DNA of 64,000 nt from Desulfurobacterium atlanticum (GTDB lineage: Bacteria > Aquificota > Aquificia > Desulfurobacteriales > Desulfurobacteriaceae), in NCBI RefSeq assembly GCF_900188395.1, contig NZ_FZOB01000008.1, positions 1 to 64,000 on the forward strand. Reading direction: 5' to 3'. Each line of letters starts with the position of its first letter. The stretch's first letter is position 1. Shown in pieces: positions 6,934 to 57,545 of the stretch. The notes under the pieces are model-generated. The model saw only the letters and a program-made list of their open reading frames with translations, did not search any database and was not told the DNA's origin. Both the position numbers and the translations under genes were made by a program.

Positions 6934-6962
6934 TTGACATTTAAAGAGAGAGTGGCTATATT
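6934..6962 (+). promoter_or_regulatory. Sigma-70 promoter of tRNA(CAT)-tilS
   Basis: TTGACA (6934-6939), a 17-base spacer and TATATT (6957-6962), ending 18 bases before the tRNA. This is the best promoter on the plus strand in this region and has no competing terminator between the tRNA and tilS, so it probably drives both. Confidence 0.8.
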
Positions 6963-6980
6963 TGTAGCCATCAGAAATGT

Positions 6981-7057
6981 GGCGACGTGGCTCAGGTGGT
7001 TAGAGCGGGCGGCTCATACCCGCCAGGTCGGTGGTTCAACTCCACCCGTCGCCACCA
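6981..7057 (+). tRNA. tRNA with anticodon CAT: elongator Met or the lysidine-type Ile2
   Basis: 77 bases with a complete cloverleaf: acceptor GGCGACG paired with CGTCGCC, D stem GCTC/GAGC, anticodon stem GGCGG/CCGCC, loop CTCATAC (anticodon CAT), T stem GGTGG/CCACC, discriminator A and encoded CCA. G1-C72 pairing rules out the initiator, which is elsewhere (57469-57545). The acceptor stem and the loop base C38 look more like elongator tRNA-Met. The position directly before tilS, whose only substrate is tRNA-Ile2(CAU), argues for Ile2. The sequence alone does not settle which it is. Confidence 0.95.
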
Positions 7058-7084
7058 TATAAATAATCTTCTCATAAAAACTGT

Positions 7085-8422
7085 ATGGATTTAAAAAAAA
7101 GAGTTCTCCAAACTATTAAAAAGTTTTCTCTTATTTCTCCAGGCGATACAGTTCTATGTGCCGTGTCAGGAGGCCCTGATTCTGTTGCTCTCCTTTTTAT
7201 TCTTAATGAAATCTCAAAAGAGGAAATTCCAATCTCTCTGTACATCGCCCATTTCAATCACATGTTAAGAGAGGAGAGCGACGAAGAGGAAAATTTTGTA
7301 AAAGAGATAGGCAATTCTCTCAATATTCCAGTTTTTACAGAAAGAAAAAATTTAAAAGAGATTACAGGCGGCAAAAACATAGAAGCTATAGCAAGAAGAG
7401 AAAGGTATAAATTCCTTTACAAGATAGCACAGAAGATTGAAGCAAACAAAATAGCAACAGGCCATACAGCTTCAGACCTTGCAGAAACAGTAATTTTTAA
7501 TCTCACAAAAGGAAGCGGTATAAAAGGGTTACGTGGCTTTTTGCCGAAACGGGAGAAAATTATAAGGCCACTTTTTGAAACAACAAAAGAAGAAGTTGAA
7601 AATTATCTGAAAGAAAGGAAAATTCCATATAGAATAGACTTTTCCAACTTCTCAATGAAATTTTCCAGAAACCTTATAAGAATAAAGGTAATCCCGGAGC
7701 TAAAAAAGATAAATCCATCCCTGGAGAAAACCATCCTTAGAGAAACAGCCACACTAAGAGAAGCGGAAGATTTTATAAAAGAAGAGGTCAAAAAAATTCT
7801 AAGTAGAGCCAATATTCGTAGTGATAAAGCAGAAATTTCTCTTTCAATCATAAAAGCTGTGCATCCATTTATACTAAAAGAAACCATAAATGAAATGTTC
7901 TTCAAAATTTCGGGAGAATACCTTAACAGGACAAAGTTAAAAGCGATAGAACACCTGATAAAAAAAGATGAAAGTGGTGAAATTGACCTGAAGAAAGGAT
8001 TTAAAGGTAGAAAGGACCAGAACAGTTTTTCCATAGAAAAAGAACAATTTTCACCAGAAAACAAAGTGAAAATTAAAGTAACTAGCGAAACAGAGAAAAT
8101 AGAAACCCCTTCAGGAACTTTCATTTTTAATGCTAAAAATCCCCATTTTGAAATTCCAGAAGAAATAATAAAAAAGGGAGTTTTTATAAAAAATCGTGAA
8201 GGAGGAGAGTGGCTCCAATTTCCATACGGCAGAAAAAAATTGAAAAAATTTTTTATAGAAAAGAAAGTTCCTGTTAAATTAAGGGATTTTCTTCCTATTG
8301 TTGTTACAGCAGACAACGAAGTAATATGGATTCCAGAATTGTTTAAAAAAACATATATTAAGGAAAATCAAAACATCATAGGTGTGAGGTTTGAAAGTGG
8401 AATTAAAAATTTTGATAACTGA
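7085..8422 (+). CDS. tilS: tRNA(Ile)-lysidine synthetase
   Basis: 445 residues. It converts C34 of tRNA-Ile2 to lysidine with ATP and lysine, so that the anticodon reads AUA and is charged with isoleucine. The PP-loop SGGPDS is at residues 28-33, followed by the family stretches AHFNHMLREES, EAIARRERY and GHTASDLAET. The C-terminal part (about 330-445, with EGGEWLQFPYGRKKLKKFFIEKKVP) matches the TilS C-terminal tRNA-binding domain. The gene starts 27 bases after the tRNA 3' CCA, with no Shine-Dalgarno sequence in between. It overlaps hpt by about 26 bases. The order tilS-hpt-ftsH is a widely conserved bacterial cluster. Confidence 0.95.
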   Translation: MDLKKRVLQTIKKFSLISPGDTVLCAVSGGPDSVALLFILNEISKEEIPISLYIAHFNHMLREESDEEENFVKEIGNSLNIPVFTERKNLKEITGGKNIEAIARRERYKFLYKIAQKIEANKIATGHTASDLAETVIFNLTKGSGIKGLRGFLPKREKIIRPLFETTKEEVENYLKERKIPYRIDFSNFSMKFSRNLIRIKVIPELKKINPSLEKTILRETATLREAEDFIKEEVKKILSRANIRSDKAEISLSIIKAVHPFILKETINEMFFKISGEYLNRTKLKAIEHLIKKDESGEIDLKKGFKGRKDQNSFSIEKEQFSPENKVKIKVTSETEKIETPSGTFIFNAKNPHFEIPEEIIKKGVFIKNREGGEWLQFPYGRKKLKKFFIEKKVPVKLRDFLPIVVTADNEVIWIPELFKKTYIKENQNIIGVRFESGIKNFDN

Positions 8423-8897
8423 AGAGGAAATAAAAAAAAGGATAAAAACACTTGCAAAAGATATTTCTGAAGAGTTCAATGGAGAGAAAGTAACGGCTAT
8501 CTGCCTTTTAAAGGGAGCTTTTATTTTTACAGCAGACCTTGTAAGGGAGATGAAAACAGAAGTTGAAATAGAGTTTATGAGAATAAAAAGTTATGAAGGG
8601 ACAGAAAAGGGAGAAGACAAACTGATATACAATGTGGAAAGTGATATAGAAGGAAAAAATGTTCTAATCATTGATGACATTCTTGACACAGGCGGATGTC
8701 TTAAAACGGCAGTTTCTGTTATAAAAGAGAAAAAACCTGCTAAAATAAAAACCTGCGTTCTTCTTGAAAAGGAAAGAGATAAAGTTATAGATGCTGATTT
8801 TGTTGGATTTAAAATTCCAGATAAATTTGTAGTAGGCTACGGTCTTGATATGAATGAGCTTTACAGAGACTTACCGTATATAGCTGTCGTTGAATAA
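8397..8897 (+). CDS. hpt: Hypoxanthine (guanine) phosphoribosyltransferase
   Basis: About 166 residues. It salvages hypoxanthine or guanine with PRPP to IMP/GMP. The PRPP-binding motif VLIIDDILDTGG is near residues 89-100, and the family segments ICLLKGAFIFTADLV and GFKIPDKFVVGYGLDMNE are clear. Two starts are possible inside tilS: TTG at 8391 and GTG at 8397. GAGG at 8386-8389 is correctly spaced only for GTG, so 8397 is preferred. It lies in the conserved tilS-hpt-ftsH operon, 25 bases before ftsH. Confidence 0.93.
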   Translation: MELKILITEEEIKKRIKTLAKDISEEFNGEKVTAICLLKGAFIFTADLVREMKTEVEIEFMRIKSYEGTEKGEDKLIYNVESDIEGKNVLIIDDILDTGGCLKTAVSVIKEKKPAKIKTCVLLEKERDKVIDADFVGFKIPDKFVVGYGLDMNELYRDLPYIAVVE

Positions 8898-8922: not shown

Positions 8923-10812
8923 ATGAATCGGTTCCAAGACATATTAAAAAGTGTGGCTCTTTGGATAACTATAGCGTTACTCATGATAATTGCATTTAAC
9001 TTTTTCAGTTCTCCACAATTTACAAGAAAAACGATACCTTTCTCAACATTTCTGCAAGAAGTGGAAAAGGGAGAAATTAAAAAGGTTACCATTCAGGGAC
9101 AGGAAATTACAGGTCAAACAAAAGAGGGACAGGAGTTTAAAACCTACACTCCTTACTATCCAGACCTTGTTAAAAAGCTGACAGAGAAAAATGTAGAGAT
9201 AAATGTAAAACCTGAAGAAGGAAGTCCCTGGTATATCACAGTTCTTGTTTCGTGGCTCCCGATGATATTTCTCATAGTTATATGGATAAGCATGATGCGC
9301 CAGATGAACGCAGGCGGAAGCAAAGCTTTATCTTTTGCAAAAAGCAGAGCAAAAATCTTCATAGACAATAAACCTAAAGTAACATTTAAAGATGTTGCAG
9401 GTATAGATGAGATAAAGGAGGAAGTTGCTGAAATAGTTGAGTTCTTAAGAAATCCAAAAAAATACCAGCAACTTGGCGGTAAAATCCCTAAAGGAATACT
9501 GCTTGCTGGTGCTCCCGGAACAGGGAAAACTCTTCTTGCAAAGGCGATAGCAGGAGAAGCAAACGTTCCTTTCCTTTCCGTAAGCGGTTCAGAATTTGTT
9601 GAGATGTTCGTAGGTGTTGGAGCTTCAAGAGTAAGAGACCTCTTTGACCAGGCAAAAAAACACGCTCCCTGCATAGTGTTTATAGATGAGATTGATGCTG
9701 TGGGAAGGAAAAGAGGTGTTGGAGTAACAGGAGGACACGACGAAAGAGAGCAGACACTGAACCAGTTGCTTGTTGAAATGGACGGTTTTGAAAGTAACGA
9801 AGGGATTATAGTCATAGGTGCAACAAACAGACCTGATATTCTTGACCAGGCTTTATTAAGACCTGGAAGATTTGATAGACAGATATATGTTCCCCTGCCT
9901 GATGTAAAAGGAAGACTTGAAATTCTTAAAATTCACACCAAAGATAAACCTTTAGGTGATGATGTTGACCTTGAAGTTATAGCCCGTTCAACGCCCGGAT
10001 TTTCAGGAGCCGACCTTGCCAACATAGTAAACGAAGCTGCACTTATAGCCGCACGGAAAGGACACGGAAAAATAATGATGGAAGATTTTGAAGAAGCAAA
10101 GGATAAAGTTACAATGGGAATAGAAAGAAAAAGTCTGGCTTTAAGTGAAAGAGAGAAAATAACAACAGCTTACCATGAAGCAGGACATACACTTGTAGCA
10201 AAACTCCTTCCAAATGCAGACAAAGTTCACAAAGTAACAATAATTCCCCGAGGTAAAGCTCTTGGAATTACCCAACAACTTCCTGAAGAGGATAAATACA
10301 CATATACCAAAGACTACCTTCTTGACAAGCTTTGCGTTTTATTCGGCGGTAGAGTTGCAGAAGAAATAGCCCTTGGAACAATCTCCACAGGAGCTGGAAA
10401 CGATATAGAGAGAGCCACTGAAATTGCCAGAAAAATGGTTGCAGAGTGGGGAATGAGTGAGAAGATAGGACCGATAGCAGTTAAAATGAAAGAAGAATTT
10501 GGAGAACCTGTTGAAATCGTAAGTGAAGACACAAAACGGTTAATAGACAAAGAGGTTAAAAGAATAATAAATGAAACCTATCAGAAAGCCAAGGAGCTTA
10601 TAACCAGCAATTTTGAAAAACTTGAAAATCTTGCAAAAGCACTTCTTGAGAAAGAAACCCTTACAGGAGAAGAGATAGATCTTGCAATGGAAGGAAAACT
10701 AAACGATTCCGATAAACCACCTCAAAACCCTTCCCCACCAGAAAGTAAAAATAAAGAAAAGAACGATAAAAAGGATCTTCCACCTAACTTCAATCCTCAG
10801 TTCGATGCGTGA
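8923..10812 (+). CDS. ftsH: ATP-dependent zinc metalloprotease FtsH
   Basis: 629 residues, full length. It is an inner-membrane hexameric AAA+ protease that degrades membrane and unstable cytosolic proteins. Membrane helices at about 10-28 and 105-125 flank a small periplasmic domain. The AAA module has Walker A GAPGTGKTLLAKA (about 197-209), Walker B IVFIDEIDAVG and the second-region-of-homology arginines (RPGRFDR). The zinc site HEAGH is at about 418-422. The C-terminus is a charged, proline-rich tail. AAGGAG precedes the ATG. It is third in the tilS-hpt-ftsH-folE unit; folE starts 12 bases later. Confidence 0.97.
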   Translation: MNRFQDILKSVALWITIALLMIIAFNFFSSPQFTRKTIPFSTFLQEVEKGEIKKVTIQGQEITGQTKEGQEFKTYTPYYPDLVKKLTEKNVEINVKPEEGSPWYITVLVSWLPMIFLIVIWISMMRQMNAGGSKALSFAKSRAKIFIDNKPKVTFKDVAGIDEIKEEVAEIVEFLRNPKKYQQLGGKIPKGILLAGAPGTGKTLLAKAIAGEANVPFLSVSGSEFVEMFVGVGASRVRDLFDQAKKHAPCIVFIDEIDAVGRKRGVGVTGGHDEREQTLNQLLVEMDGFESNEGIIVIGATNRPDILDQALLRPGRFDRQIYVPLPDVKGRLEILKIHTKDKPLGDDVDLEVIARSTPGFSGADLANIVNEAALIAARKGHGKIMMEDFEEAKDKVTMGIERKSLALSEREKITTAYHEAGHTLVAKLLPNADKVHKVTIIPRGKALGITQQLPEEDKYTYTKDYLLDKLCVLFGGRVAEEIALGTISTGAGNDIERATEIARKMVAEWGMSEKIGPIAVKMKEEFGEPVEIVSEDTKRLIDKEVKRIINETYQKAKELITSNFEKLENLAKALLEKETLTGEEIDLAMEGKLNDSDKPPQNPSPPESKNKEKNDKKDLPPNFNPQFDA

Positions 10813-14018: not shown

Positions 14019-14095
14019 GCGCCCGTAGCTCAACTGGATAGAGCGTGGGACTACGGATCCCAAGGTTGCAGGTTCGACTCCTGCCGGGCGCGCCA
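14019..14095 (+). tRNA. tRNA-Arg (anticodon ACG)
   Basis: 77 bases: acceptor GCGCCCG with CGGGCGC, D stem GCTC/GAGC, anticodon stem TGGGA/TCCCA, loop CTACGGA (anticodon ACG), T stem GCAGG/CCTGC, discriminator G and encoded CCA. A34 of this tRNA is the standard bacterial substrate of TadA, which makes inosine so that one tRNA reads CGU, CGC and CGA. The tadA gene starts 20 bases after the CCA. Confidence 0.97.
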
Positions 14096-14115
14096 CACTT
14101 TAATGGAAAAATCAG

Positions 14116-14574
14116 ATGGAAAATCACCTTTTCTTCCTTAAAGAAGCCGTAAAAGAGGCAAAAAAAGCATTAAAATTTGGAGAAGTTCCAATCGGAGCTG
14201 TTATAGTAAAAAACAACAGGATAATTGGAAGGGGATTTAATAAAAAGGAGTTTCTCCAATCTCCCACAGCTCACGCGGAAATCATTGCAATTGAAGATGC
14301 AGCAAAAAGACTAAACTCCTGGAGACTTACAGGAACAATCCTTTATTCAACTGTTGAACCGTGCATTATGTGTTGCGGTGCAATTATTCAGGCAAGGATA
14401 GAGAAGGTTGTTTATTCAACACCTGACCCGAAATTTGGAGGAGTTGAAAGCCTTTTTTCTATATTCTCAAATGGAAACCTCAACCATAAAGTAAAGGTTG
14501 AAAAATATCCTCTTGAAGAACCAGAAAAGCTTCTGAAAGAGTTTTTCCGGAATCTTAGAAAAAAACAGGTATAA
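14116..14574 (+). CDS. tadA: tRNA-specific adenosine deaminase
   Basis: 152 residues. It deaminates A34 to inosine in tRNA-Arg(ACG). The zinc and catalytic motif HAE is at residues 53-55 (proton-relay Glu55) and PCIMC at 82-86 (Cys83 and Cys86 bind zinc). KFGGVESLF and the C-terminal LLKEFFRNLRKK agree with TadA rather than a free-nucleoside deaminase. The start ATG at 14116 has no Shine-Dalgarno sequence; an upstream ATG at 14103 is out of frame. With no terminator after the tRNA, the two are probably one transcript, and tRNA 3' maturation would leave a very short leader on the tadA mRNA. Confidence 0.95.
   Translation: MENHLFFLKEAVKEAKKALKFGEVPIGAVIVKNNRIIGRGFNKKEFLQSPTAHAEIIAIEDAAKRLNSWRLTGTILYSTVEPCIMCCGAIIQARIEKVVYSTPDPKFGGVESLFSIFSNGNLNHKVKVEKYPLEEPEKLLKEFFRNLRKKQV

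Positions 14575-57468: not shown

Positions 57469-57545
<77 letters not shown>

Follow-up and report, generated by a model that had tools for sequence, protein, structure and literature searches.

The window, that is, the whole stretch of 64,000 nucleotides of Desulfurobacterium atlanticum DNA analysed here, carries a tRNA gene with the CAT anticodon directly in front of tilS, both on the plus strand. The tRNA gene (6981..7057, identified by ARAGORN) encodes its CCA end and is assigned below to elongator tRNA-Met by its determinants, a tree and a cross-validated classifier. It is preceded by a sigma-70-type promoter, TTGACA-17-TATATT (6934..6962, plus strand, 11 of 12 matches), with 18 nt between TATATT and the tRNA start. 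The tilS gene (7085..8422) encodes a tRNA(Ile)-lysidine synthetase of 445 aa. The open reading frame matches Pfam families PF01171 (ATP_bind_3, PP-loop) and PF11734 (TilS_C), both above the cut-off, and contains SGGPDS, corresponding to the SGGxDS motif of the PP-loop domain; thus it is a member of the TilS family, and the TilS_C domain assigns it to type I. The 27-nt gap between the two genes (7058..7084) contains no promoter, no terminator-like site on the plus strand and no Shine-Dalgarno-like motif. Hence the arrangement described in the first-pass annotation is reproduced by ARAGORN, the reading frames, Pfam and the motif checks. Further downstream on the same strand are hpt (8391..8897; a Pribosyltran match), encoding a hypoxanthine phosphoribosyltransferase-like protein, overlapping the end of tilS and conserved 3' of it, and ftsH (8923..10812), encoding an AAA protease, whose homologues are found 3' of tilS in many phyla. 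Another CAT tRNA of the window, the initiator tRNA-Met (57469..57545, plus strand), lies outside the tilS unit and was used for class comparison.

TilS was searched for in the same genome and in 30 relatives, and the loci of family f1 were counted where the tilS match was long enough to show the gene start. In all 22 readable loci of families f1–f3 (18, one and three, respectively) tRNA-Met is situated directly ahead of tilS on the same strand. The tRNA sequence is nearly invariant within f1; in locus L059 just 6 nt separate the tRNA from the TilS match. The promoter is present in each of the 18 f1 loci, 13–18 nt before the tRNA, as TTGACA (once TTGAAA) separated by 16–17 nt from TATATT. Since both the adjacency and the promoter are kept in all 18 f1 loci read, they are more than a chance arrangement. 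The leader between the tRNA end and the tilS start is 16–28 nt long in f1 and as short as 5–6 nt in f3. A Shine-Dalgarno-like motif precedes only two of the 22 tilS starts, compared with 24 of the 33 genes in the window (Fisher P = 4.5e-6, kinship of the loci being ignored). The pair is absent from all seven genomes of the Aquificaceae-like family f4, where TilS is short. In three f4 loci (L215, L251, L253) we observed Ile2-type tRNAs with the acceptor GGGTGCG, which has neither C4:G69 nor C5:G68; it is possible, judging by these sequences, that the enzyme type and the tRNA determinants changed together in this family.

Three CAT tRNAs, no two of the same class, are present in the genome (1.74 Mb in 23 contigs, 99.7% complete). 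That at 57469 is the initiator, with a C1:A72 mismatch and the GGG/CCC anticodon stem. The one on contig C11, the last in a Lys-Glu-Ala-CAT cluster, has the acceptor GGGCCTG/CAGGCCC with C4:G69 and C5:G68, as well as C29:G41 and A38, and resembles tRNA-Ile(GAT) of the relatives (GGGCC...). The pairs C4:G69 and C5:G68 are identity elements of E. coli tRNA-Ile2 for TilS (PMC12514573). In the tilS-linked tRNA of the window, these positions are G4:C69 and A5:U68 within the acceptor GGCGACG/CGTCGCC; it has C38, A73, the CAU anticodon and a paired 1:72, and features neither the initiator GGG/CCC stem nor an Ile2 acceptor, as is proper for an elongator tRNA-Met. Moreover, this class is the only one remaining in a genome of such completeness after the initiator and Ile2 have been assigned, and no other elongator Met gene was found in the genome tRNA list.

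The same division is seen in other genomes. All 26 Ile2-type CAT tRNAs that we compared, from the relatives and from other phyla, start with GGG and have A38; as the class was defined by the acceptor, A38 is an independent Ile2 feature. The CAT tRNAs linked to tilS start with GGC, GCC or similar. In a tree built with the wobble base masked, the tRNA of the window falls among the elongator Met tRNAs, and the C11 tRNA groups with Ile2 and Ile1. A profile classifier with natural-log scores was trained on 26 Ile2, 26 Met and 16 initiator tRNAs. Most Met labels were set by exclusion, within 20 genomes in which a separate Ile2-type tRNA is present or which are close to a genome of this kind. With one genome left out at a time, it was right in 68 cases out of 68, and E. 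coli ileX was called Ile2. When the family was excluded from training altogether, the window tRNA scored −43.3 as Met and −64.6 as Ile2, and the C11 tRNA −32.5 as Ile2 and −55.5 as Met. A first whole-sequence profile was abandoned: it assigned 29 of the 152 linked tRNAs to Ile2, having been trained on just seven Met tRNAs, mostly from f4 and E. coli, too narrow a set; once the Met labels were widened by exclusion, all but one of these calls vanished.

Hence, on its sequence, the tRNA ahead of tilS is an elongator tRNA-Met and not tRNA-Ile2, the substrate of TilS. The first-pass annotation had preferred Ile2, and with it a substrate encoded alongside its modifying enzyme. This is refuted on the annotation's own terms, because the Ile2 determinants reside in the C11 tRNA and the Met ones in the tRNA of the window. 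What spoke for it, the CAU anticodon and the neighbourhood of tilS, is outweighed by the acceptor, by C38 in place of the invariant A38, by the Ile2-type gene on C11, and by the tree and the classifier, so that we consider a substrate–enzyme pair here extremely improbable. C32, earlier taken as an Ile2 sign, occurs in all classes and is not diagnostic. In turn, the reading of GGCGACG and C38 as elongator-Met features agrees with the tree and the classifier, and the alternative proposed at that time, that tilS is linked to the very tRNA its product must avoid, proved right and widespread among the relatives and in other phyla.

We also considered TmcAL as the reason for C38, as this enzyme reads positions 32 and 38 of tRNA-Met (PMC12514573). 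This explanation was rejected, since Pfam PF05636 has no match in the whole genome; C34 of the elongator tRNA-Met is thus probably not acetylated by TmcAL here.

To see the pair outside the phylum, we scanned the genome_contigs collection for a CAT tRNA followed by the TilS PP-loop codon motif, which yielded at least 120 stretches. Among the 80 matches listed, 67 hold TilS by HMM; the other 13, with no convincing TilS (at most 60 bits), were left out of the counts. By record title, the listed linked loci come from Acidobacteria, Aminicenantes, Omnitrophota, Poribacteria, Chloroflexi, Calditrichota, Fibrobacter, Caldisericota, Atribacteria, Gastranaerophilales and others. Among the 67, a same-strand ftsH occurs in at least 43 and hpt in at least 29; both are lower bounds, as the queries were taken from the window and certain contigs stop short. 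The order fMet, Met, tilS, with both Met-type tRNAs ahead of tilS, occurs in genomes of four phyla (L261, L262, L264, L238), namely in Caldisericota, Calditrichota, Lithacetigena and one Chloroflexi genome. The distance between the tRNA and tilS varies, and in other phyla it is much longer.

Because such a scan selects for linkage, samples covering six phyla were also drawn with TilS (family TIGR02432) as the sole criterion. Each comprised about 30 genomes and is labelled by the record title of its centre genome. The gene was regarded as linked if a CAT tRNA occurred on the same strand at most 350 nt before the PP-loop codon. In five further phyla, 61 of 146 tilS genes are linked: 19 of 30 in the Acidobacteriota sample (centre G031), 14 of 28 in Omnitrophota (G032), 12 of 30 in Chloroflexota (G033), 4 of 29 in Gastranaerophilales (G038), and 12 of 29 in one further phylum (sample centred on G040). 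None of 30 is linked in the Pseudomonadota sample, centred on an alphaproteobacterium (G045). No tRNA of another isotype was seen ahead of tilS in the five phyla with linkage; over all eight groups taken together, other isotypes occur just twice, as one tRNA-Ala arranged in tandem with Met (L060) and one antisense tRNA-Ser (L065). The classifier, applied to 133 linked tRNAs outside the training set, some of which share a genome, called 125 Met, seven initiator and one Ile2. A few of the linked tRNAs in Chloroflexota are initiators. The single Ile2 call, by a narrow margin, is L323 (G080:C18, Chloroflexota), whose linked CAT tRNA has the acceptor GGCCGCA; by its sequence it may be Ile2, the one possible exception.

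These counts bear on a further explanation, that the position of the tRNA is accidental or marks a site of integration. While tRNA genes are common integration sites, the genes around this one are argG, tilS, hpt and ftsH, with no integrase among the adjoining reading frames. Over 176 loci, chance predicts 0.015 linked elongator Met tRNAs, and about 0.5 linked tRNAs whatever their kind. Against this near-zero expectation stand 22 loci out of 22 in three families and the recurrence in other phyla. Chance placement or an insertion hot spot is refuted by this conservation, and we give it next to no credence.

Most likely, the locus represents an old co-transcribed unit, tRNA-Met–tilS–hpt–ftsH; co-transcription is suggested by the position of the promoter, the 27-nt gap and the lack of a terminator. 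The four genes would be transcribed together from the single strong promoter ahead of the tRNA. RNase P and 3'-end processing would then excise the tRNA, leaving a tilS mRNA with a leader of 5–28 nt, as judged from the loci of the phylum, and the output of TilS would be low, at a rate set by the tRNA promoter. The tRNA-Met would read AUG, occupy MetRS and compete with unmodified Ile2, and TilS would convert the CAU tRNA that is left into a reader of AUA. Finally, and this is the least certain step, the unit might have been kept since it ties the supply of the AUG reader to that of TilS, so that the two sides of the AUG/AUA split would go up and down in step. The recurrence of the pair over many phyla suggests that the link between these two sides is old. 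As a whole, comprising the tRNA–mRNA unit with one promoter, the tilS leader with no Shine-Dalgarno motif and the coupling of AUG and AUA doses, this description is in our opinion about as likely to be right as wrong. A stronger claim, that this is an ancient operon retained by the need for matching doses of the AUG-reading tRNA and of the enzyme making the AUA reader, the fidelity partner being the near-cognate tRNA rather than the substrate, is tentative, and we consider it rather unlikely.

Several observations bear on dose coupling. AUA is the most frequent isoleucine codon in 16 genes of the window (322 of 597). However, tilS linkage shows no consistent trend with AUA usage in other phyla; hence AUA usage was discarded as the driver of linkage, and a simple demand account is weakened. 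The pair is not required, as it is absent in f4 (0/7) and in the Pseudomonadota sample (0/30), and a role specific for elongator Met is blurred by the few initiators and the one possible Ile2 among the linked tRNAs.

An alternative is that the gene order is merely inherited, with the identity of the tRNA having no meaning. In this case tRNA-Met–tilS–hpt–ftsH would persist since tilS lacks a separate promoter, and splitting the pair would cost the expression of an essential gene. The patchy retention over phyla, often together with hpt and ftsH at the 3' side, is consistent with this explanation, as are the loss in f4 and Pseudomonadota with no evident harm, the variable gaps and the fMet–Met–tilS triples. 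On the other hand, the divergent argG upstream was not found in four f1 loci, yet the tRNA and the promoter remain there, and in five phyla no other isotype replaces Met ahead of tilS, although any tRNA promoter would serve. Selected dose coupling and plain inheritance are close; we regard inheritance as a serious possibility, if somewhat short of an even chance.

Another possibility is a regulatory leader, with TilS or MetRS binding the unprocessed tRNA-Met and repressing or stabilising tilS. The tRNA is joined directly to a tilS start devoid of a Shine-Dalgarno motif, and tRNA-like leaders regulating synthetase genes are known (PMC9976931, thrS). However, for the TilS enzymes assayed tRNA-Met is a poor substrate or none (more than 300-fold discrimination in E. 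coli; PMC12514573), and a fixed leader does not sit well with the far longer gaps of other phyla. Hence such regulation seems improbable.

In many phyla, TilS is tied to elongator tRNA-Met and hardly ever to the tRNA that it modifies, which suggests that the tRNA-Met : TilS ratio may be a quantity worth controlling. How AUG is separated from AUA with CAU tRNAs is a classic decoding question. No description of the tRNA-Met–tilS pair was found in the literature searched, which covered mostly titles and abstracts and few subscription journals. Gene-neighbourhood surveys often omit tRNA genes, and the pair may have been overlooked for this reason. Operons of tRNA and protein genes are already known, and the pairing of tRNA-Met with tilS is, as far as can be told, new.

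Like type I TilS of E. coli and of Geobacillus (PMC12514573), the TilS protein of the window has an N-terminal PP-loop domain and TilS_C, and the E. coli identity pairs are present in the Ile2 of this genome. Unlike the tilS gene considered here, that of E. coli is preceded by yaeR and has no adjoining tRNA gene. In Bacillus subtilis, we assume the order tilS–hprT–ftsH, with trnSL-Met1 upstream, ahead of spoIIE. This would be the same row of tilS, hpt and ftsH, possibly with a Met tRNA some genes upstream, but spoIIE and other genes lie between that tRNA and tilS. The bacterial tRNA–mRNA operon thrU-tyrU-glyT-thrT-tufB of E. coli has the same organisation, tRNA first and a gene of a translation protein behind it, under one promoter. 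It differs in that the protein of the tilS unit modifies a near-cognate of the tRNA, and in that tRNA-Met–tilS recurs over many phyla.

A further parallel is in the window itself, where tRNA-Arg(ACG) precedes tadA (14019-14574). Of the two wobble substrate–enzyme pairs initially proposed for this stretch, this one is real and conserved in the family, and the tilS one is not a substrate pair. The tRNA-Arg(ACG)–tadA pair is present in the 19 genomes of f1 (L387–L405, L416), though in G015 solely at a further tadA match that is partial, and none was seen in f3 or f4. Elsewhere in the family, most genera (L391, L393–L405) have tRNA-Ser(CGA) just behind tadA; it is missing there in the genus of the window and absent from the tRNA list of this genome. 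In both pairs, a tRNA is followed at a short distance by a wobble-modifying enzyme, and the arrangement is conserved in the family. The difference is that tRNA-Arg(ACG) is the true substrate of its enzyme.
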